In this document: one piece after another, positions 669 through 13,686 of the stretch
Layout: each line of letters begins with the position of its first letter
Position numbering within the stretch: position 1 is the stretch's first letter
Assembly (NCBI GenBank): GCA_024643725.1
Contig: JAHEMJ010000001.1
Coordinates: forward strand, 1 to 64,000
Origin: Crocinitomicaceae bacterium
Lineage (GTDB): Bacteria > Bacteroidota > Bacteroidia > Flavobacteriales_D > Crocinitomicaceae
Direction of reading: 5' to 3'
DNA length: 64,000 nucleotides
Translations under genes and position numbers: made by a program
The notes under the pieces: generated by a model
The model's database searches: none
Told to the model about the DNA's origin: nothing
What the model saw: the letters and a program-made list of their open reading frames with translations, nothing else

Positions 669-1013
669 ATGAAAATATGGAAAACACTATTTTATTTTCT
701 GGCAGTTATTCCATGGACATTTATTGTGGCACTTGCAACGTTTTATGTGAAGGCTGGACAAATTCTTGGTCACGCACCGACATACAATAATCCCGACCCA
801 AAAGAACTTGAGATCTATATAGACTATGCCCCATTTGTTGATTTGACTGCCGAAGTATGGATGTTCTCATTTTTTGTTTGGTTTGCATTGACTATGACGT
901 ACATAGTTATTTTCAGGAGGAGAATCGAATGGACTCCCCTAGTCATTAGCGGCATTGGACACTATTTTGGAATTCTATTATTTTCAGGAATTTTCGAATG
1001 GTATATTGACTGA
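669..1013 (+). CDS. hypothetical small membrane protein (about 3 TM)
   Basis: ORF with hydrophobic segments, ATG start. Confidence 0.6.
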   Translation: MKIWKTLFYFLAVIPWTFIVALATFYVKAGQILGHAPTYNNPDPKELEIYIDYAPFVDLTAEVWMFSFFVWFALTMTYIVIFRRRIEWTPLVISGIGHYFGILLFSGIFEWYID

Positions 1014-1096
1014 AAGATGAGCATAACGATAACAAGAATGAAACATCCTTTATTTGCACTTTTCTAAAAAGCTATTTTTCGTATGTCATTGTCAGA

Positions 1097-1126
1097 TTTG
1101 TGGTTAACAGAAGTTTTGTACTTTTA
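1097..1126 (+). promoter_or_regulatory. putative Bacteroidota promoter (TTTG-N18-TACTTTTA)
   Basis: TTTG at 1097-1100 and TACTTTTA (one mismatch to TAnnTTTG) at 1119-1126, upstream of the ORF at 1184. Confidence 0.4.
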
Positions 1127-1183
1127 ATCACGTTGAAAATGGAAAAAAAGATCTCAAATGAACAGGAATGACAACGAACAGAA

Positions 1184-2167
1184 ATGAAATTTAGGCTAAT
1201 TATATATTCCATATTTCTTACATCTCATGTATTTGCTCAAGATTACATAGAATATCACAGAATCATAAATAGAATTGATGAAGATGTTTTAAACAAAAAC
1301 TACTCGATAGCTATTAAACGACTCGACAGCCTCTATGAAAATTTTGATTTTATTTATGCCCGCCACTGCTTTAAGGCATTACAAATTTGTACCGTTTCGC
1401 AAGACTCTCTACATGCAGATAAATGGTTGGAAAAGTCATTTATTCAGGGTGTTCCAATTTGGATGACAAGAACCAATGAACTGACAAAACAAGCCCTGAA
1501 ATATACCACAACTCAATCTACCATAGAACGATATGATAGCTTGAGGACGATCTACATTAATTCCATAAACCTTGAAATCAGAAATGTAATTGATAGTTTG
1601 TATGTCATTGACCAACTCTACACAACAAAGGTAAATGATGGATTTATCCTTTTTCGACATACATACCATGGAATCAGATGGTTGAAAAATAACAAAAAAC
1701 AATTTGCCATCTTAAATGAAATAATTGATACGTATGGATACCCTGACGAGAGACTTATTGGACTTCCGAGAAATCTTGAAGATTCCATCCAACAGATGAA
1801 ACATTTTAATTTTTGGGGCCCATCGCTTCTAGAATCGAAAACTTACATTATGCTCATTCATTACTACAGTAATCCCAGAGCGGACATAAACAACAAATTA
1901 CTTAAAAACATTAAACTGGGTTATATGCCTCCATATCAATATGGTGCACTTAATGACTTTATGGCAAAATGGGGAAAGGAAAAATATGGTGAATTCTATT
2001 ACTATAATGTTTGGCACCAAGACCCGGATCATTCAAATGACCTTGATATTGAAAACAGAAGAAAATCTATAGGGCTCAATAGTTATGCGCAACAAAATAG
2101 AAATATGTTGTTATACAGAGAACGAAGAAAAAATCATACGGCTAATTCTGAAATAATTTTAGAATAA
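1184..2167 (+). CDS. hypothetical secreted protein
   Basis: 327 aa ORF with signal peptide MKFRLIIYSIFLTSHVFAQ. Confidence 0.7.
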   Translation: MKFRLIIYSIFLTSHVFAQDYIEYHRIINRIDEDVLNKNYSIAIKRLDSLYENFDFIYARHCFKALQICTVSQDSLHADKWLEKSFIQGVPIWMTRTNELTKQALKYTTTQSTIERYDSLRTIYINSINLEIRNVIDSLYVIDQLYTTKVNDGFILFRHTYHGIRWLKNNKKQFAILNEIIDTYGYPDERLIGLPRNLEDSIQQMKHFNFWGPSLLESKTYIMLIHYYSNPRADINNKLLKNIKLGYMPPYQYGALNDFMAKWGKEKYGEFYYYNVWHQDPDHSNDLDIENRRKSIGLNSYAQQNRNMLLYRERRKNHTANSEIILE

Positions 2168-2277
2168 AACATGACTGAATTTGAAAACACTGGCATAGCA
2201 TCTTTAAAACAATGTAAGCGCAAAGCAAAAAACTTTCCAAACAATCAACATGCAATGAACACAAACAGAAAGTGAAT

Positions 2278-3060
2278 ATGACATACACAAAATACATAAC
2301 GATCATTTTTCTTTTACTCACGTCACTGTCCTTTGGAAAAACGCAACTACTTAAAAAGTATGACTTTGACAAAGGAGGTTATTCCCTACTCGGCATTCGT
2401 ACGGGTGCCGCCCCAAATGACCTGGCGGAAAAATTAGGTGATTTCTATACCAATGACATTGCCGTGTTAAACGCTATTAAAAAGGAATGGACCTTTAAAA
2501 AATCAGGTGTTGGATTTGCCTGTGGTTACCACTATGAGGTGATAATTTGTGAAAATGGATTTGAACTAGAGCGTTTTTCGATTAACCTAAATTGTAAGGA
2601 AATCTCATGTGATGAGGGATATTTCTATTTTGACCCGGAACAACTCGCCATGTTTCAAAACAATTTCAACTATTCGTATCGAAAAAAAGAAGAATTTAAT
2701 TCGCTTTCAGAAGCTAGGAATTACTACGCTGAAATTCGAAAAAAACCTAACCTTATTTATGCACCCACTCCTGCTTGGACGACATACGAAGGAACATTTG
2801 ATTTTACACTTAGCTGTGAATATGAAACTAAAGACTGTTATCAAAATGAAAAGAAACTTTTGGAAAATTTGACCGAAGAAATCAGCAAAAAATATCCTGG
2901 TGAAGAATTCGAACTTGAGAGTATTGGCGGCTCCCTTACTGACTTATTTGTGAAAGTAACTTGCAACAAGTCCCTAGCAGAAAAATTCACGTTGTATAGT
3001 AAAAATGGAAAGTTTGCAGAATGGAAAACATTTGATTTGAGGTTTTACACGTTTTGGTGA
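2278..3060 (+). CDS. hypothetical secreted protein
   Basis: ORF 2272..3060; ATG at 2278 gives signal peptide MTYTKYITIIFLLLTSLSFG. Confidence 0.65.
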   Translation: MTYTKYITIIFLLLTSLSFGKTQLLKKYDFDKGGYSLLGIRTGAAPNDLAEKLGDFYTNDIAVLNAIKKEWTFKKSGVGFACGYHYEVIICENGFELERFSINLNCKEISCDEGYFYFDPEQLAMFQNNFNYSYRKKEEFNSLSEARNYYAEIRKKPNLIYAPTPAWTTYEGTFDFTLSCEYETKDCYQNEKKLLENLTEEISKKYPGEEFELESIGGSLTDLFVKVTCNKSLAEKFTLYSKNGKFAEWKTFDLRFYTFW

Positions 3061-3101
3061 GAACGGATGTTCTGATAAAAAAAAACTATGTTTAATCAAC
3101 C

Positions 3102-3233
3102 ATGCAGTACCTACTGATCAGAATGCTCGCCATCTTTTCCCTTTTTAGTTGTTCAGCTAATAAAATAAAGGAAATATGTCCTTATTTGATCAATTTAACA
3201 AGTGATTTAAAAACAAATGGCGAAAATCTTTAA
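3102..3233 (+). CDS. possible 43-aa lipoprotein or 5' remnant of a lipoprotein gene
   Basis: Read directly: MQYLLIRMLAIFSLFSCSANKIKEICPYLINLTSDLKTNGENL*, lipobox-like LFSC; below the ORF-track length cutoff; 3' end overlaps the next ORF out of frame. Confidence 0.4.
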   Translation: MQYLLIRMLAIFSLFSCSANKIKEICPYLINLTSDLKTNGENL

Positions 3234-3555
3234 ACTGCCATTCATCCTTGGACAAGTACTCCTGTTGTTCTTACTAAACAATTATGCTTTTCATGTTAAG
3301 GGTGGTGATAACCAAACGAGTCTACCTGTTCTGCTGTGCGGAATTCTATTCGCATGTATCGCCATAAGTGTCCTCCTGATTACGCAATTCGTTTTAAAAT
3401 CAACGGGCAGCTCAAACAAATTGAATTTGATCATTCTCATCCTATTTATTCTCTTGAGCTTGAATTTTTTCCTGTTAGACTATTTCAATGTCATGGTCGA
3501 ATATGACCGCTGGATCGAAAAAGGAATGCCGGCAAAACCGTTTTGGTTTGAATAA
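3217..3555 (+). CDS. hypothetical membrane protein
   Basis: 112 aa ORF with three hydrophobic segments. Confidence 0.6.
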   Translation: MAKIFKLPFILGQVLLLFLLNNYAFHVKGGDNQTSLPVLLCGILFACIAISVLLITQFVLKSTGSSNKLNLIILILFILLSLNFFLLDYFNVMVEYDRWIEKGMPAKPFWFE

Positions 3556-3758
3556 TAAATGGTTTGTCTACTGTTCATACAACCAACATGAACCATCGTC
3601 GAAAAAGGATTGGGCGGAAAAGTGAACATCTCCATCCAACTTTGATGGCAGAGGAAACCATCAGCACATCATAAAACATTCAACAATTTGGTCCTTCTTT
3701 CGATGTTTGACTAACTATTTGTTATTTTTATAAAAGCTTACTGAAATAAAGACAAGCA

Positions 3759-4334
3759 TTGAAACACAATCTCCCATTTTTCATCCTTCTCCTTCTTGTT
3801 TTTTTGACAGGCTGTCATTCACCTTCAAAGCCAGTCAACTCCAATAAAAAACTTCGTTTATTGACCTACGGTGGACCACCAGATTTAGAATGTAGTGTCA
3901 ACGCTATAAACGTGGTTGCAGATCAATGGGGTCTTGAGTTTGTAAGAGCCGCCGGATGTGAAGTCACCGAAGAATTAGTGGATAGTGTTGACCGTCACAA
4001 TAAAAAAGTGGAAGCTTTGATTGAAGCTAAATTTGGAAAATCGTGGCAACTCACATTTGATAAAGAAGTCAACGAGGAAGGTAAGAAACAAAAAGTTGTT
4101 TATGACCTATTAGACAACGAAAAAAGGATCCTAGACAAGCAAAAAGCGCTTGAAAAAGAAGGAAATGGTTTACATTATCAATTCAAGAAACGGAATAATG
4201 ACACCTACTTGGTTCGTGTGAGCGGCTGGGGAAAAATCAAAGGGAAAGACACGTACGTTTCTTACTTTCGTTATGTAGTGGACATCGAAAAGAAACAGGT
4301 GAAATTAACGAGTGATCGTGTGATCAAAGAGTGA
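3759..4334 (+). CDS. lipoprotein, possibly FEKKY-domain-like
   Basis: TTG start; lipobox LTGC in MKHNLPFFILLLLVFLTGCHS; 'RLLTYGGPPDLECSVNAINVVADQWGLEFVRAAGCEVTEELVDSVDRHNKKV' resembles FEKKY-domain proteins from memory. Confidence 0.6.
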   Translation: MKHNLPFFILLLLVFLTGCHSPSKPVNSNKKLRLLTYGGPPDLECSVNAINVVADQWGLEFVRAAGCEVTEELVDSVDRHNKKVEALIEAKFGKSWQLTFDKEVNEEGKKQKVVYDLLDNEKRILDKQKALEKEGNGLHYQFKKRNNDTYLVRVSGWGKIKGKDTYVSYFRYVVDIEKKQVKLTSDRVIKE

Positions 4335-4371
4335 ACGAATAGAAATAGCCAATAGTTGATAAGAACCAAAA

Positions 4372-4854
4372 GTGATGTTAGAAAATTTTATCAAAGAAGC
4401 CCGCGAACTGAATACATATGACCTTGAACACATCGAAGGGTATAAATTGTACTATAGCAGAATTAAAAACATCCTTTCTTTACTGACTTACCTTGCCTTG
4501 ATCGGATTTGGATTGTTTCTCATCATCAGTGACACACGCAATGAGGGTAAATTGCTAGGGTTGTTTTCTTTTGTTTTCTTTCTTTATATGCTCGTTAAAA
4601 CCATCGGAAATCTGATGCTGAGAAATCCCGTGATCATTTTAACGCGAGACAAAATCTACCACCTAAAAACAAATCAATGGTATTCGCTGTATGATTACGA
4701 ATTGTCTGATTCGAGCAATCGAACCTTGGCTTTTCGAAGAAAGAACGCCAATGGCTACAACGAATTCGCCGAAAGTCGCTGGGAATTAAACTCTGATGAT
4801 GAATTTATGAGCTTGCTTAGGGTGTACACGCATTCGTTGGAAAGAAAGGAATAG
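4372..4854 (+). CDS. hypothetical membrane protein (2 TM plus possible PH-like soluble tail)
   Basis: 160 aa ORF; two adjacent TM segments followed by a soluble beta-rich tail. Confidence 0.55.
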   Translation: MMLENFIKEARELNTYDLEHIEGYKLYYSRIKNILSLLTYLALIGFGLFLIISDTRNEGKLLGLFSFVFFLYMLVKTIGNLMLRNPVIILTRDKIYHLKTNQWYSLYDYELSDSSNRTLAFRRKNANGYNEFAESRWELNSDDEFMSLLRVYTHSLERKE

Positions 4855-4873
4855 CATAAAGATTGGTCATAAA

Positions 4874-5503
4874 ATGAAAAACAAACATCTACGCAAATTA
4901 AAACCGATGATTCCAATGAAAGCAATCAGCACCGCACTTTTATTATTCGCGCTCACATCCCTCACCTCTGATGAATTACCGAAATCATTTTCGGAATTGC
5001 TTGTCCGTGCACACATGACTTTTCAATATCCGGAAGGATTGGAAGAAACCAAAATCGTCGAAAACAAACAGATGAATTACGAATATGCGCTAAAGTATCC
5101 CAAAAAGAAATTTGAAGTGCGCTATGCCATTCGACCTTTAGATAAATTAATGCACGACTACCGAAAAAAGGAAAAGAAAAAAGGCTCCGGCGACATAAAC
5201 ATTAATCCCAATGAATGGTATTCTTCCATGCTGCAGGCAACAATCTTAAACATTTCCGGTGGACAACTGCCTGAAATCACCAACTTTAACAAACAGGCTG
5301 TCAAAAAAGAGTTCAATGCGGATTGGGGTGCAACATGCTTTTTTGAGGTAGGTAAAGAATTTGGACAAAGCTATAAATACTGTATGGTTGTGGCCATCCA
5401 CAAGGATAATTGTGCAGATGCGTATTACTTTTATTTATCCAATTCCAAAGACGATTTTAGCGAATTGATGAGTCCAGCATTCCACTCCTTGAAATTCAAG
5501 TAA
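4874..5503 (+). CDS. hypothetical secreted protein
   Basis: ORF with signal-like ISTALLLFALTSLTS. Confidence 0.6.
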   Translation: MKNKHLRKLKPMIPMKAISTALLLFALTSLTSDELPKSFSELLVRAHMTFQYPEGLEETKIVENKQMNYEYALKYPKKKFEVRYAIRPLDKLMHDYRKKEKKKGSGDININPNEWYSSMLQATILNISGGQLPEITNFNKQAVKKEFNADWGATCFFEVGKEFGQSYKYCMVVAIHKDNCADAYYFYLSNSKDDFSELMSPAFHSLKFK

Positions 5504-5520
5504 AAAGACATCGTTTGCAT

Positions 5521-5940
5521 ATGAACAGACAAAAAACAAGTTATTTTATCCTGCTCAGCTCTTGTTTTATTGGTGCTTTCGTGAGTATGTTCTTTCCGTA
5601 CTTGGAAAAGTTAGGATGGCAAAACGGACAATTGTCCATCTTCGAGTCAGTTCCCGGCTATGCATTTTTCTTAATGCCTTTCATCTTGATCACCATGATT
5701 TTGGCTGCATTCACGCATTTACACTGGTCCTTTTTCTGGAGTGTTTTCCACATTGGACTCGTCTATTTAAACCGATTCGCCATCCATTACCAAGGATTCA
5801 TTGATCAAGATTATGATAGTAAAGCTGGACTTGGATACTACCTACTCTGCCTGTTTTCAAGCATTTTCTTTATTTTAACAACGGTAAATTGGTTAAATCG
5901 ATGTCGCCAACAAACATCGCTCGAACGCACAAACGAATAA
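5521..5940 (+). CDS. hypothetical membrane protein (4 TM)
   Basis: ORF 5515..5940; ATG at 5521; hydrophobic segments. Confidence 0.6.
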   Translation: MNRQKTSYFILLSSCFIGAFVSMFFPYLEKLGWQNGQLSIFESVPGYAFFLMPFILITMILAAFTHLHWSFFWSVFHIGLVYLNRFAIHYQGFIDQDYDSKAGLGYYLLCLFSSIFFILTTVNWLNRCRQQTSLERTNE

Positions 5941-5949
5941 ATTAAAGTA

Positions 5950-6555
5950 ATGGGAATGAATCTATTCTTGGGGATTTTCATTTTTGCCGCTTGTTTTGCG
6001 CCGACTTGCATCCTACTCGCTTACGCGCTACGTTCCATCAAAGAAGAGCAGCAAGAAATCATCAAACTGAAACGAAATCCGATGAGCGTCCTCTTCTCAT
6101 TCCTATTAAACGGACTAACTTTTGGACTCTCTGTGTCAGTATTCATCTATATCATTACGTCAACACATTTACCGATTTGGATTCACCTTTTCACTTTTCC
6201 GTTTATATTTTTGGCATCCATCGATTTCATCATTCTCATCTCTCACGTGGTGAATGAATGGCGATACAAGGTCACTTGGGACAAGAAACAGAATGTGTTC
6301 AATGTACGTTACAAAGGAAATGAATTTCAACTTCCCTTAGATTCAGCCACCTTGCAGATCATTCACTATTTTCCACCCATGCAAGGTCGTTCCAAAGGAG
6401 TTCCAGGTTTCAGTTACCATGTGTTAGTGCTTTCGGACCATGGAAATACCTGGAAAGTCTCAAGCATCACCTACGACAACTATGACTTTTTTCAAACTTT
6501 GTCTGAGCATCCAAATTTTACCGTGATCAAACGTCAATTTAATGTATTACTTTAA
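5950..6555 (+). CDS. hypothetical membrane protein with soluble C-terminal domain
   Basis: 201 aa ORF, about 3 TM then a beta-rich tail. Confidence 0.55.
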   Translation: MGMNLFLGIFIFAACFAPTCILLAYALRSIKEEQQEIIKLKRNPMSVLFSFLLNGLTFGLSVSVFIYIITSTHLPIWIHLFTFPFIFLASIDFIILISHVVNEWRYKVTWDKKQNVFNVRYKGNEFQLPLDSATLQIIHYFPPMQGRSKGVPGFSYHVLVLSDHGNTWKVSSITYDNYDFFQTLSEHPNFTVIKRQFNVLL

Positions 6556-6614
6556 CAGGAAGCAAACGTCAACTTGCTCCAAAACACATGGCTTAATTCG
6601 ATAAAAACATCCGG

Positions 6615-8369
6615 ATGAGAAAAGAATTGACAGAAAAACATAGTTTCGTAAACGACAGCATCTTTCAAGTGAAAAAAGTGGTACTGACTGGAAATCGTAT
6701 GTTCAAAAATCTCGTTCATCCACCAAAAAAATTCAAGGACAAGGGACTTTTGCTGAATGAGCCCATCATCGCCTTTTCCGAAAGCGACCTGTGGAATCCC
6801 TTTGACAACATAGACAATTGGATATTAACCGCGGGCAAAATTGAAAACTTAAGAATTTCAGCAAAAAAAATAAATGGACTTGAGGTGAAGGCGCATGAAG
6901 TGTTTAGTTTTTGGAAACACATTGGCAATCCAAACTTCGGTCAAGGATATGTTGTAGGAAGAGAAATTAGAGAGGGCTGCATTGTTCCAACCATTGCCGG
7001 TGGACTCTGTCAACTTTCGAATGCCTTGTATGACGCTGCTTTACATGCAAACTTCGACATCGTTGAACGACACAAACACACCAAAGTCATCAAAGGCTCG
7101 CTTGCCGAAAAAGACAGGGATGCGACCGTCAAATGGAATTACCTTGATTTACGTTTCAAGTCCTCCTTTGACTTTCGAATCGAAGTGGAGTTGACTTCCG
7201 ATAAATTGATCGTCGCATTTAAAAGTCGAGAAAAGAACACAAGTCCTGATGGGCGCAAGGATATTTTGCTGCAATCCAACAAATTGAATGACTGCTATTC
7301 TTGTGGGAATGCCGCCTGTTTCAAACATCCCGACAGAACTTCCCTGAAACAAGAAATGGCAACGACCACCTTTATTCTCGATGAAAAATGGCCTGAATAC
7401 GACAAATATGTTAGTGAAATCGCCAGCAAATCAGACCACTTCATCGTGCCGATGCGGAAAAGCAGATGGATTCGAACAGATCGCTATTCCTGGAATTCTG
7501 CGCATCCCGACAAAACCAAAACAACACCATTCCACGGAGTTTATCGAGCCTTAAAACTCAGGTTTCATCCAAAGAACAAGAACAATGCGTTTGAACTGAG
7601 TTTGCAGTTGGACAAGAAAATCGCCAAAGCAGCGTCGAAGCTCATTCCACTCGATTCTACACACGTCGTCATTTCTCAAAACTTACTTCCCTTCGTGTAT
7701 GAAACCGATGCCTTAGGTGGACGAACCTTTGATGTACTGATGACCAGGCTTCCTTTTGAAAAACTGCACGAACGATTGGATTTTGCTTTTGAACAGCATC
7801 AGGAAAGTCCAACACTCAATGATTTTAGAGCAAGTCAAGAATGGATCGAACTTGAAAACAAGGCCTTGACGCGTGCACGAAAAATCATAACTCCACATGC
7901 AGAAATGGCGGCAATCTTCCAAAACAAAGTAGAGAAGTTGGAATGGCACATATCTAAGACGGAAAATGGACCTTTAAACGGAACCAAGTTACTTTTTCCC
8001 GCTTCCGCCGTTGGAAGAAAAGGCGCTTATGAAATGAAAAGACTGGCAAAAGAACTACAATTGGACTTAGTTATCGCAGGAAGAAGCATCGAGCAAGAAA
8101 ACTTTTGGGAAGATGTGCCGATTGAAAAGTTCACGGGTAACTTTCAGGACATCGGACTTGTGGTTTACCCAACCTTTGTGGAGAATCAACCCAGACAACT
8201 ATTGAAAGCGCTGTCGAAAGGAATTCCAGTTGTTACCACCACCGCAAGTGGACTTGAGCCCTCAGAACGCGTGGACATTGTCGAAACGACTAACTTTGAG
8301 CAATTGAAAGAGGTTGTTCAGAGGCGAATCGAATGGAAAATCACAAACTTCATTGCTACTAGGAAATAA
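6615..8369 (+). CDS. VanW-family protein fused to a glycosyltransferase-like domain
   Basis: N-terminal VanW-like 'HEVFSFWKHIGNPNFGQGYVVGREI...GGLCQLSNALYDAAL'; middle CX2CX4CX2H motif; C-terminal GT-B-like 'PTFVENQPRQLLKALSKGIPVVTTTASGLEP'. Confidence 0.75.
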   Translation: MRKELTEKHSFVNDSIFQVKKVVLTGNRMFKNLVHPPKKFKDKGLLLNEPIIAFSESDLWNPFDNIDNWILTAGKIENLRISAKKINGLEVKAHEVFSFWKHIGNPNFGQGYVVGREIREGCIVPTIAGGLCQLSNALYDAALHANFDIVERHKHTKVIKGSLAEKDRDATVKWNYLDLRFKSSFDFRIEVELTSDKLIVAFKSREKNTSPDGRKDILLQSNKLNDCYSCGNAACFKHPDRTSLKQEMATTTFILDEKWPEYDKYVSEIASKSDHFIVPMRKSRWIRTDRYSWNSAHPDKTKTTPFHGVYRALKLRFHPKNKNNAFELSLQLDKKIAKAASKLIPLDSTHVVISQNLLPFVYETDALGGRTFDVLMTRLPFEKLHERLDFAFEQHQESPTLNDFRASQEWIELENKALTRARKIITPHAEMAAIFQNKVEKLEWHISKTENGPLNGTKLLFPASAVGRKGAYEMKRLAKELQLDLVIAGRSIEQENFWEDVPIEKFTGNFQDIGLVVYPTFVENQPRQLLKALSKGIPVVTTTASGLEPSERVDIVETTNFEQLKEVVQRRIEWKITNFIATRK

Positions 8370-8406
8370 TGAATCTGTTTTTTTGCTAGGTTTACATAGA
8401 AAACAG

Positions 8407-9255
8407 ATGAAACAGCTGACCTTAAAACTCATTATTCCACTTAGTGTCATCTCGTTCGCAACACTGACGAAATGGTGGTATGCGCTTCCAGTCGACGCTC
8501 CAGGTACCTACCTAACAGGATTTCCTTTTCCATTCGTTTGTAACGGCTGGCACACATCGATGTCCTTGCAAATTTTCGCAATTGAATTTTTCGTAGACTT
8601 CCTCACCTACTTTTTGATTTGGTTTCTTGTATTTTTTTGCATCAACCGTTATTGGAGGAAAATCAATCCAACGAAATGGCTGACTATTTTCCTGTGGAGC
8701 GTTGCCGGACTCATCATCTGCGGAGCGAGTTTTATTGCCGCCAATCCAGACCATAAGTTTTACCTGAAACGTCCTTTTGACATGGAAGTGAAGGCTTCGG
8801 GATTTAGATTTATTTGGGAGAAAATGGAACGCATGGACAATCAGTTTGATGATGGACAAGTAACGAAAACTAAAAATACCAACATTAAAAATCAAGAATT
8901 AACGATTGATACTTTCTCTAATTTTCCACCAGAAATAGACGGTTGTTCTTGCTACTACTCCAAAGACTCACTTGACTTAAAAAACGGATCTTATCTTTAT
9001 GCAAATGACTTTGAACAAACATCATTTTTAAACATAAACGGCATACTCACAAAGTTCATTCAGTCCGAATGGAAAGAACTAAATAAAACCACTAGAACCG
9101 CCAAAGCGAAAAGTGATCAATATGAATTAACAATCGAAATCCACGATGTCCGGAAAAATGGTGACGAAACATGGATCAATACAGGGATAATCACAGTGAA
9201 AGATAAAAACGGTAATAAAACAACAAGGACCCTCTATGGAGAATGTGGGTGCTAA
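8407..9255 (+). CDS. hypothetical chimeric membrane/secreted-domain protein
   Basis: ORF 8314..9255, likely ATG at 8407; TM N-terminal half and Cys-containing C-terminal half (IDGCSCYYSKDSL...TLYGECGC). Confidence 0.6.
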   Translation: MKQLTLKLIIPLSVISFATLTKWWYALPVDAPGTYLTGFPFPFVCNGWHTSMSLQIFAIEFFVDFLTYFLIWFLVFFCINRYWRKINPTKWLTIFLWSVAGLIICGASFIAANPDHKFYLKRPFDMEVKASGFRFIWEKMERMDNQFDDGQVTKTKNTNIKNQELTIDTFSNFPPEIDGCSCYYSKDSLDLKNGSYLYANDFEQTSFLNINGILTKFIQSEWKELNKTTRTAKAKSDQYELTIEIHDVRKNGDETWINTGIITVKDKNGNKTTRTLYGECGC

Positions 9256-9734
9256 TGAAATTGGAAATGAAACATCAGAAAAATAAAACGCACATGGCTA
9301 AAATTTACGGGATCACAGCACTTAGTCTACTCATTATTAGCTTCTTTATACCTGGGAGTTTTGACATTGCTTTACACGATAGTTATGTGATCATTAGCAA
9401 GTCGCAAATAACGGTCATCTTCGCCCTACTATTCGCGTTTTTCACCTTGATTTTATGGATCCTAGAAAGAAATTTAAAACAGTTAAGTCCTATCCTAAAT
9501 TGGCTTCATTTCGGTCTAACAGTCGGTGGAATTTTGATTATGGAAGTGATCACCAGTCATTCCATCATGCAAATTTTTTTAGTGGAATTTTCCACAGATG
9601 AAATCAACAAACAGGAAATTTGGATCAACGAATGGCTGAGTTTTTTAATCGTTGTCGTGCTATTTAGTCAAGTTCTATTTATTTTTAATATCCTAAGAGC
9701 CTTCATCTTAAAACCTAAACATGGTAGCAACTGA
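9255..9734 (+). CDS. small membrane protein with COX1-like 'DIALHDSYVII' segment
   Basis: ATG overlaps the stop of the upstream ORF (TAATG at 9253-9257); four hydrophobic segments. Confidence 0.55.
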   Translation: MKLEMKHQKNKTHMAKIYGITALSLLIISFFIPGSFDIALHDSYVIISKSQITVIFALLFAFFTLILWILERNLKQLSPILNWLHFGLTVGGILIMEVITSHSIMQIFLVEFSTDEINKQEIWINEWLSFLIVVVLFSQVLFIFNILRAFILKPKHGSN

Positions 9735-9891
9735 GGTGGGCATACAGAACCATACGCTTACTTTTTTATGTATCTTCATTTTCCAAATTCATTTGCGCTA
9801 TGGGTGCTAAGGTGAAAGATTAAAACGCTAAATTTGATATGAATCGTTTCTAGTTAAAATCCGATTACATCAACCATCAAGAAAACAAGCA

Positions 9892-10476
9892 GTGAGAAAT
9901 TTACTTTGCATCATTTTCGGATTTTTACCACTTACGTTTGCCTTTGGACAGACCTATAGTTCGCTGACAAGTGATGAGGAAATGTATGCCTTTCTGAAGT
10001 GGATGACCGTGCATGACCGCAAACACGTTGATAAACCTACATGGAAACGCAAGCACATCACGACTAACATTTTACCGTGGGAAATAGCAAACTTTCTACT
10101 CCCTGAATCGGCAGGAGTCAATCAACGTGAATTCATCAACATAGACAGTCGTTACCTGTATAAAAGTCGTGGTGGTACGGACACCCTGTTTAATCAACAA
10201 GATCGCGATTTTATGTTTCAGCAATTTACCGCGATGAAGGACACTGTTTGGCAAGCGAAGTTTTCATACCTCACGCACTTGACGAGTAAGAAACAAGCAA
10301 GCTTGAAAACGTACTGTTATTCCATCCCACTGTTTTCCGTGGACAAAACATACGTCATCATTCAAAAACATTTTCACTGTGGAAATATGTGCATCGAAGG
10401 TGGATACTACGTTTACCGACGATTGAACGACAAGCATTGGGAATTCGTGACAGCTGTAAATACTTGGATAAGTTAA
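9892..10476 (+). CDS. hypothetical secreted protein
   Basis: GTG start, signal peptide ...LCIIFGFLPLTFAFGQ. Confidence 0.6.
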   Translation: MRNLLCIIFGFLPLTFAFGQTYSSLTSDEEMYAFLKWMTVHDRKHVDKPTWKRKHITTNILPWEIANFLLPESAGVNQREFINIDSRYLYKSRGGTDTLFNQQDRDFMFQQFTAMKDTVWQAKFSYLTHLTSKKQASLKTYCYSIPLFSVDKTYVIIQKHFHCGNMCIEGGYYVYRRLNDKHWEFVTAVNTWIS

Positions 10477-10481
10477 CGAAA

Positions 10482-11219
10482 ATGATCTTGAACAACATGA
10501 ACAAAACAAAAAAGTCCATAATCAGCGTCCTCTACCTTGTCCATATCTTGGTGCTGCATAACTTATTGTTTCATCTTTTTCCTTCACCAGGACCGGGAAC
10601 GATCTTTACTGTTCCACTGAGTTTTGCTGTTGCGAATATTACCGGCATTTTACATTTTTTTCTGATCAATTTCATCCAAAAGAAAAGCATTCGCATAGTC
10701 AGTCAACTGTGCTCCTTTGTCTTACTGACATGGTTTTATCTTTTCATTTACGGGGAAGAACCAATAGCTCAAATAGCGGATGCGGTTTATTACGCAAATC
10801 ACCAAGATCAATTACGCTTCGAGGATATTTTTGACGATAATTATGGAAAATTTGGCGTGAAATGTGCCGCAGCATTTGCTAAATTCAAGGACAGCATTCC
10901 AGACGCCGCATTTGTCATAACGTATTGTTGTCAGGATGAAAAGTCCTTTTACGTTGCGAGGTACGGAAATACCTTTGTAACGAATAATCAAAACCTACAA
11001 TTGAACCTTTTTGCGGACAAAGATTCCATCAGCTTATCGGAAAAGTACAAGGGAGAAGAGATCACGATCACAGGTGACGTGAAAGGATTTGGGAAAAACA
11101 GTATTTGGGGTCGAGACAACATGAAGACAACAAACAAAAACTCCATCTTTTTACACGACATTCAACTGAAACCAAATGAAGGATTCTGCACATACTATTA
11201 TCACTATTTAGTGGATTGA
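10482..11219 (+). CDS. hypothetical membrane protein with OB-fold-like (tRNA_anti-like) C-terminus
   Basis: ORF 10389..11219; likely ATG at 10482 or 10497; N-terminal TM helices; C-terminal 'LSEKYKGEEITITGDVKGFG...IFLHDIQL' OB-like. Confidence 0.5.
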   Translation: MILNNMNKTKKSIISVLYLVHILVLHNLLFHLFPSPGPGTIFTVPLSFAVANITGILHFFLINFIQKKSIRIVSQLCSFVLLTWFYLFIYGEEPIAQIADAVYYANHQDQLRFEDIFDDNYGKFGVKCAAAFAKFKDSIPDAAFVITYCCQDEKSFYVARYGNTFVTNNQNLQLNLFADKDSISLSEKYKGEEITITGDVKGFGKNSIWGRDNMKTTNKNSIFLHDIQLKPNEGFCTYYYHYLVD

Positions 11220-11384
11220 TGAAGTCATAATTAGAACTGACCAATGGATTTTTGCCTCGTGGGCTCCTGGTGAAACCATCTTTCATATCCTAATGGACTA
11301 TTTCAAGCAAGTGCTGGAGTTTACAACTTCTTTATGCGACGAAAAGTAGCATGCGTGCAGCGGAGCAAATCCATCAAAAAAGAA

Positions 11385-11392
11385 TAACTTTG
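11385..11392 (+). promoter_or_regulatory. putative -7 element TAACTTTG
   Basis: Exact TAnnTTTG match 43 nt upstream of the ORF at 11435; -33 element weak. Confidence 0.35.
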
Positions 11393-11434
11393 TATAAGTC
11401 ACTTCAGTACGATTTAACATGATGTATCAGTAGC

Positions 11435-12757
11435 ATGTCCGATATTTTCGCAGACAAAAATATTTATCCGAACGAAGGAAAAATCATCCTTCACTTTCAG
11501 GAATTCTATGACTCGGTATTTGTTGCTTTTATGCCGTTCATTGAAATCGAAGGTGAAAAAATGATCCATTCAAACCCAAGTCAATCCATTCAATTAACAC
11601 CTGAAGAAGCACTGAAAGATCTTCAATTTCTTGAGGATGCACCGCTATTAAATGCGAGGATTTACAGCCAAAACATGGATTATCCAAAAGAAGAAGAAAT
11701 TTATGAGCATGGAAAACAGATCTCTTGGGAAACCATTTAAAAAGGTGCTGGATTTTCAGGTTTTTCTGAGGTAAACAAAGCATTGGAGACATCCATCGGG
11801 GCATTAAACAGTGCTTTTAACAGTCCTGAATTATGCGATCAATTAACAACGCATACAACGAAACAAAATTACTGGCATCCAACAGAAGGTGAATTCAACA
11901 CCCTATCAAAAGTCGCTATGTACAAGGCATTCAAGCTTATAGATAAACATAAAATTTGTGTGATTGACAAGTTTTATGAACGAAGATCCATACTAGACTT
12001 GGATACACTAACTATCCATGATTTTGTAAGGGAGATTGGTCGCGAAGATTATTACATCTATTCCGTGGATAAAGAACTGTTGTTCACGATCGACTGGGAC
12101 AGTTTCTTTTTCCTCATAGCGAGTAGTCAAGAGAAAATGAATCAAATCATCGAAGCTAAATTAGTTGAAGGTTTTCTTTGTGATGAAAACACAGAACATG
12201 AGTGGGACATGGATCAAAAGGGAAATTTAACAATGGCAAACATGGATCAACTATTAAAAAATAAAAACACCAGTTCTGAACCGTTGACCATTTGCATTTC
12301 GCTTGTGTTGTTCATGCTATTTCAATTCAATCTAGACTATTTTCAGCTAAAATTTTGGTTTTTTTATGGCGCTCAACTCCATGTACCGTCCGCGCATTTG
12401 CTGAGCTACCCGTCCATCATCATCCTAACTTTTTTCATTTACAAGAAATCGAAAATCGCCTGGTGGATCATTGTGTCAATGGGTACGTACTTCATGCTAC
12501 ATGTTGGATGGAATTACATCAAAGAGTTGCAATTGCCCGAAATCGACCAGCACCAAAATTCACTTGAAACCTTACTGACCTTATTTGAAGAACCACGATT
12601 CGGACTATTCTACTACCTATCGAATATGCTCGTATGTTTCGTCCCCGTCTACTTATGCTTCCGATTTAAAGCGCATTTTTCCATCACCAGAAAGATCCTA
12701 TGGAGTGCGTTTATTGTGTCCATTGTTCTTTTTACTTTGGATGTACTTTTTATTTAG
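11435..12757 (+). pseudogene. DUF2711-like protein interrupted by an in-frame TAA, fused to a C-terminal 4-TM domain
   Basis: ORFs 11435..11740 and 11783..12757 are in the same frame; the 14 codons between encode KGAGFSGFSEVNKA and continue smoothly into ALETSIGALNSAF; TAA at 11738-11740 is the only interruption. Confidence 0.6.
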
Positions 12758-12846: not shown

Positions 12847-13359
12847 TCAACTTACAAACAATTGCGCAATCGTTTTCATTGCTAAAAATAATTTGCCGCT
12901 ATCCGGTAATTTTTGAAAACCATAACTCACGTAAAATTGTTGAGCATTGTCATCAATAGGATCGACAACAACGGCAACAGAACCTATTTCATTCGATGCA
13001 AGATAACTTCGATAAAGGGCTTCTACAAGCAACTCCCTACCTAGTCCTTTGCCATGAAAAGTTACATCAACCGCTAGTCGACCCAAAAGTGTTGTAGGAA
13101 TTGTTTTATATGATTTTGGGAATTTACGCTGCCATTCCAAAGGGATAAAATCTCTTGAAATACTAGAGTTTGACAACGTGTAATAAGCAATGACCGGTTC
13201 ATTTAATTCCTCATTGACACAAACAAAACATGCAGATAATCGCTTCTTCATATCCTGACTGGCTTGAAACTTCAAATAATCGTCCAACACGGACTTTCCA
13301 CATTTGAAATCCGTTCGAAAATGAGAAGAATGAAGAAGGACTGTTTTAAAACCTACCAC
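12847..13359 (-). CDS. GNAT-family acetyltransferase toxin (TacT-like)
   Basis: 'LLGRLAVDVTFHGKGLGRELLVEAL...VVVDPIDDNAQQFYVSYGFQKLPDSGKLFLAMKTI'; GTG start directly after the antitoxin stop. Confidence 0.9.
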   Translation of the reverse strand: MVGFKTVLLHSSHFRTDFKCGKSVLDDYLKFQASQDMKKRLSACFVCVNEELNEPVIAYYTLSNSSISRDFIPLEWQRKFPKSYKTIPTTLLGRLAVDVTFHGKGLGRELLVEALYRSYLASNEIGSVAVVVDPIDDNAQQFYVSYGFQKLPDSGKLFLAMKTIAQLFVS

Positions 13360-13644
13360 TTACTGTTTAGTTTTAAATTTTGCGGCTGCAGCTTTCAGTT
13401 TTTCATTTGGTGGTAAAGGATTAAAAATCGCATCGAAAAACAATTCAGCATCACGCTTTGAGGATAATATAGCTTCTTCAGCTTGAATAATTTCTTCAGC
13501 TTGTTTCACCGCTGAACGAATGACAAACTCTGTTAAGCTACGATAACCACCTATTGCTGCAGCTCTTTCAAAAAATGCCTTTTCATCTTGAGTCAAGCGT
13601 GCTTCAAACCGAGTTTTTCCTGAAATTTTATTACTTATTGCCAT
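13360..13644 (-). CDS. DUF1778 ribbon-helix-helix antitoxin (TacA-like)
   Basis: 'KTRFEARLTQDEKAFFERAAAIGGYRSLTEFVIRSAVKQAEEII'; likely ATG (MAISNKISG) at 13644, because the track's TTG at 13665 overlaps the -7 box. Confidence 0.88.
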   Translation of the reverse strand: MAISNKISGKTRFEARLTQDEKAFFERAAAIGGYRSLTEFVIRSAVKQAEEIIQAEEAILSSKRDAELFFDAIFNPLPPNEKLKAAAAKFKTKQ

Positions 13645-13662
13645 GATTCTATCATTAATTTT

Positions 13663-13686
13663 CAAATGTACGGATTATTTACGTAC
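13663..13686 (-). promoter_or_regulatory. TA-module promoter -7 box (TACATTTG) overlapped by inverted repeat GTACG-N9-CGTAC
   Basis: + strand CAAATGTA at 13663-13670; arms GTACG 13668-13672 and CGTAC 13682-13686. Confidence 0.5.

Follow-up and report, generated by a model that had tools for sequence, protein, structure and literature searches.

What would a protein do that joins a VanW domain, by way of a short cysteine-rich linker, to a part resembling a glycosyltransferase, and where in the cell would it do so? The gene that raises the question lies in the window, a 64,000-nucleotide stretch of DNA from a Crocinitomicaceae bacterium, as 584 uninterrupted codons on the plus strand, and its product has five cysteines in total (C122, C132, C227, C230 and C235). 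No description of a VanW-glycosyltransferase fusion was found in the literature searched. A sequence-only reading of the window had proposed one, and it is upheld by a PF04294 match, a GT-B fold and the existence of full-length relatives; a frame or assembly artefact is ruled out by 23 distinct full-length copies, independent and across many genomes. Coordinates are collected in Table 1.

Table 1. Features of the fusion gene in the window, and stand-alone VanW genes with their partners at other loci (locus handle before each range)
Feature	Position	Strand	Basis or remark
VanW-CysLinker-GT-B fusion gene, 584 aa	6615..8369 (ATG at 6615, stop at 8367-8369)	+	single open frame and full-length relatives
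VanW domain (PF04294)	6837..7211	+	Pfam; genome's sole VanW
C122	6978..6980	+	in all fusions, in 0/34 stand-alone VanW; candidate fourth ligand
C132 of GGLCQ	7008..7010	+	common to all VanW compared; presumed nucleophile, mechanism by analogy (PMC12729407)
H155	7077..7079	+	universal His in VanW compared; presumed catalytic partner
Cys-rich linker C227-X2-C230-X4-C235 (-X2-H238)	7293..7328	+	alignment of 25 rows
GT-B fold	7362..8339	+	AlphaFold2, Foldseek, Pfam on family members
GRKG (R468, K469)	8013..8024	+	aligns with WaaG R208/K209 (PMC10556518)
E523 to K531	8181..8207	+	align with WaaG E281 and E289 (PMC10556518)
Methyltransferase-VanW pair	L081 6124-7490; L083 6202-7586; L085 7010-8397; L086 6322-7713; L088 6755-8166		
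VanW near M15 gene	L119 603-2050; L120 841-3654		

Residues 75-198 match PF04294 with 112 bits against a cut-off of 27 (E 1.8e-32, profile positions 2-125 of 130), and the search found no second VanW gene in the window's genome. The NCBIfam equivalog for the VanW of glycopeptide resistance, NF033128, is matched under its cut-off (78.8 bits vs 365). C132, H155 and D178 are identical in 26/26 fusion rows and in each of the 34 stand-alone VanW proteins used for comparison, the latter being from Bacteroidota, Actinomycetota and Alphaproteobacteria (three phyla). The statement that VanW has no settled function, from which the sequence-only reading started, is outdated: two Clostridioides difficile VanW proteins, LdtCd4 and LdtCd5, are L,D-transpeptidases with a triad of Cys, His and a small residue, their activity having been shown in 2024 (PMC12729407; also PMC11986978), while some other VanW proteins are without it (PMC12729407). 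C132 and H155 are presumably the counterparts of the catalytic Cys and His of these enzymes, given their universal conservation among the VanW proteins compared.

A VanW domain with a conserved Cys and His is what the fusion has in common with LdtCd4 and LdtCd5; they are predicted to be membrane attached and carry PG4 domains (PMC12729407), whereas the fusion is without an anchor and has instead the Cys-rich linker and the GT-B half. The stand-alone VanW proteins (240-290 aa, including that of glycopeptide resistance) have the same core, C132, H155 and D178 included, and like the fusion are without a signal sequence; hydropathy likewise yields no hydrophobic segment in those examined. They differ from the fusions in being without the linker cysteines, C122 and the GT-B half, in forming a separate clade, and in many pocket positions (W60, E117, S162, E165, R168 and W174). 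By hydropathy the window protein has no secretion signal and no hydrophobic segment (maximum mean 1.08 over 19 residues), and a Pfam search gave no PG4 peptidoglycan-binding domain. Because of these absences, and since an activated sugar would have to be within reach of its GT-B half, the protein is most likely soluble and apparently cytoplasmic.

For the C-terminal half, the likeness to a GT-B donor-binding region is a weak match in the window protein itself, the end of which reaches Glyco_trans_1_4 at E 0.0017 with 19-20 bits against a cut-off of 27. At E<=1, glycosyltransferase group 1 profiles recognise 16 of 18 family members, the best of them at 5e-6. Searched against the PDB, a family profile picks out WaaG/RfaG with an E-value of 0.0025. 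Structure prediction from the single sequence was uninformative (pLDDT 34); AlphaFold2 with an 18-sequence alignment gave block-mean pLDDT values of ~70-95 over residues 250-575, with an acceptor-type sub-domain at about residues 250-450 and a donor-type one at about 455-575. In Foldseek, 205 solved structures matched the model at E<=0.001, and BshA, other GT-B enzymes and WaaG led the list (best 3.5e-8). The TM-scores are moderate (<=0.48 by target length), at least in part since the query was the whole multidomain chain. The GT-B likeness first noticed at the end of the protein is thus sustained, a GT fold being what AlphaFold2 and Foldseek both give.

The donor site of this fold is largely, though not fully, conserved. 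WaaG holds the diphosphate through R208 and K209 and the ribose through E289, with E281 in the wall of the glucose pocket (PMC10556518). The family-profile alignment to RfaG places the GRKG residues R468 and K469 on R208 and K209, and E523 on E281, and all three are unchanged in every family member; Q355, G368-R370, R378-P380 and R405 in the acceptor domain are equally invariant. However, the EX7E motif of GT4 enzymes is incomplete: its second Glu, that of WaaG E289, is K531 here, and every member but one has K, N, R or Q there. On its sequence the GT half is accordingly GT4-like with an altered EX7E and not an ordinary GT4, because R468, K469 and E523 are kept while the position of E289 is replaced, and with the ribose-binding Glu gone from nearly all members the GT half may use its donor differently or no longer use one. 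With GT4-type GT-B enzymes (WaaG/RfaG, BshA, MshA) the fusion thus shares the fold and the first Glu of EX7E, together with GRKG as in WaaG; it departs from them in the second Glu, and in that a CX2CX4C linker comes before its N-terminal GT domain and VanW is fused to it, with detectable sequence similarity limited to the donor domain.

In the linker, C227, C230, C235 and H238 had been correctly placed at bases 7293-7328 and read as a CX2CX4CX2H site. CX2CX4C appears in 0.02% of shuffles of the window protein. Conservation in homologues, by which that reading proposed to be judged, bears out its three cysteines, which are invariant (25/25 aligned rows), but not its histidine, which is kept in 23/25 and is Ser or Asn in the divergent members L003 and L004, both of which retain all five cysteines. 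Overlooked at the time was C122, ten residues N-terminal to C132. The four extra cysteines go with the fusion, because C122 is present in every fusion (26/26 rows) and in none of the 34 stand-alone VanW proteins; C122 and the linker cysteines occur only together. As H238 is not invariant, the site is therefore better written as CX2CX4C plus C122, a Cys3His site being possible in most members. Given this co-occurrence, C122, C227, C230 and C235 may together make up a tetra-Cys site by which the linker is fastened to the active-site loop of VanW. The model shows no contact of C122 with the linker, pLDDT being below 50 in both regions (residues 102-128 and 211-248, the VanW active-site loops and the linker).

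The survey of how often the fusion occurs, proposed with the sequence-only reading, gave recurrent full-length copies and a sparse distribution. Among the samples of genomes covered, full-length fusions are in 9/299 of the order and 8/395 of the class; in a phylum sample of 396 genomes none but that of the window has the fusion, 8 carry a VanW gene of some kind, and the linker-GT half by itself gave only generic GT donor-domain matches. A scan of genome contigs yielded further fusion copies. The distinct full-length sequences, window included, number 23 in Bacteroidota, with the others 34-81% identical to the window protein; the 25 full-length aligned rows include two duplicates (L100 is the same as L046, and L101 as L038), and row L036 is without its first 54 residues (contig end). 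One copy, from a metagenome-assembled genome titled Chitinophaga pinensis (L042), is the same as that of G252, a genome of the window's family, and the title is probably wrong.

The fusion is real and old, but rare. It arose once among the sampled sequences, since a single branch of the VanW tree (support 1.00, length 0.98) sets all the fusions apart. The gene is under purifying selection (dN/dS ~0.16, 0.110/0.706, for the window against the nearest copy). Identity between fusions does not track RpoB identity (Spearman 0.16, p 0.52), as with one pair at 84% in RpoB and 34% in the fusion and another at 74% and 60%, and for that reason horizontal transfer or old paralogy is what the comparison would point to.

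The reading that we favour, tentatively and at somewhat less than an even chance, is of a soluble two-domain cytoplasmic enzyme acting on one acceptor, with C122 and C227/C230/C235 as a metal site that would hold the linker against the VanW pocket. In the VanW half (C132/H155 with D178), C132 would be acylated by an amide or peptide substrate and would hand the acyl group on to water or an amine, as supposed for VanW L,D-transpeptidases; the GT-B half would draw on an activated donor to add a sugar to the same acceptor, or to one linked with it. The metal of the tetra-Cys site would most likely be zinc, with Fe-S possible, and the site would lock both linker and GT half onto the VanW pocket. 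We infer the metal, both activities, the single acceptor and the substrate's identity; for the last, our best guess would be either a peptide resembling a peptidoglycan precursor or a small molecule that contains a peptide. A step further, and a doubtful one, would be to see here a new cytoplasmic bifunctional class in Bacteroidota: a cysteine transferase resembling an L,D-transpeptidase, coupled to a glycosyltransferase through a metal site of four cysteines to which the VanW active-site loop contributes, and making a novel peptide-sugar modification.

Were the VanW half alone catalytic, the GT-B half could be a degenerate glycosyltransferase that serves to recognise a sugar-nucleotide or glycoconjugate (e.g. 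UDP-MurNAc-peptide) and to bring it before the VanW site. The near-general loss of the second EX7E Glu, and donor-domain profile scores under the Pfam cut-off for the window protein, would fit, yet the invariance of R468, K469, E523 and the acceptor-domain residues is what one would look for in a functional active site, and we consider this fairly unlikely. An unlikely account of the cysteines is that the Cys3His linker is a small zinc knuckle alone, with C122 unrelated to it and instead forming, together with C132, a redox switch for the VanW site; the ten-residue spacing of the two and the presence of H238 in most rows are in its favour, though it has to contend with L003 and L004, where H238 is lost and the five cysteines are kept, and with the finding of C122 and the linker cysteines only together.

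Another role, that of a VanW-type L,D-transpeptidase outside the cytoplasmic membrane acting on mature peptidoglycan, would agree with the conserved active-site residues and with the known activity of LdtCd4 and LdtCd5 (PMC12729407). It is nevertheless highly improbable for a protein that has neither membrane anchor nor PG4 domain, and whose fused GT-B half would need an activated sugar donor. That the gene is instead a stand-alone protective one (anti-phage or detoxifying), spreading horizontally, is improbable: its patchy distribution, neighbours that are not conserved, and the lack of correlation with RpoB would all be expected, but a PADLOC defence search gave no match, and no full-length fusion was found in plasmid, phage or viral-contig collections, in which the plasmid matches are VanW-only. 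As regards neighbours, none is common beyond close relatives in the genome-collection loci and six further fusion loci. The value of the fusion as a functional clue on VanW, claimed at the outset, is in consequence real but limited, because the fusions are without a conserved gene context.

For the two-domain enzyme that we favour, the wider relevance is that many VanW proteins, including that of the vancomycin-resistance cluster, have no known substrate. The permanent joining of VanW to a GT fold in one soluble protein suggests that some members of the family act intracellularly, on a substrate that would also meet a sugar donor. The fusion is, moreover, a compact protein with defined residues for direct testing (C122, C132, H155, C227/C230/C235 and E523).

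Stand-alone VanW genes have neighbours of their own. A VanW of ~240 aa directly follows a class I SAM methyltransferase gene in 5 of 6 loci, a pair kept across several genera, and these proteins are without signal sequences. On Bartonella and Aureibacter plasmids, stand-alone VanW genes are near genes of M15 type (D-Ala-D-Ala dipeptidase), an arrangement reminiscent of vanB-type clusters. Both kinds of neighbour would fit peptide or peptide-derived substrates.

An integron-like cassette array around the fusion gene was also considered, and no recurrent repeats of that kind were seen. A long series of small proteins, for the most part uncharacterised, is encoded in the surrounding part of the window (669-12757), entirely on the plus strand, and many of them seem to have signal or membrane segments; in comparison with the nearest relative, L044, content differs and some order is kept. 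Beyond it on the minus strand (12847-13665) is a GNAT acetyltransferase gene preceded by one for a small DUF1778/ribbon-helix-helix-like protein, a pair that is also in L044 and resembles toxin-antitoxin systems of the TacAT/AtaRT type.
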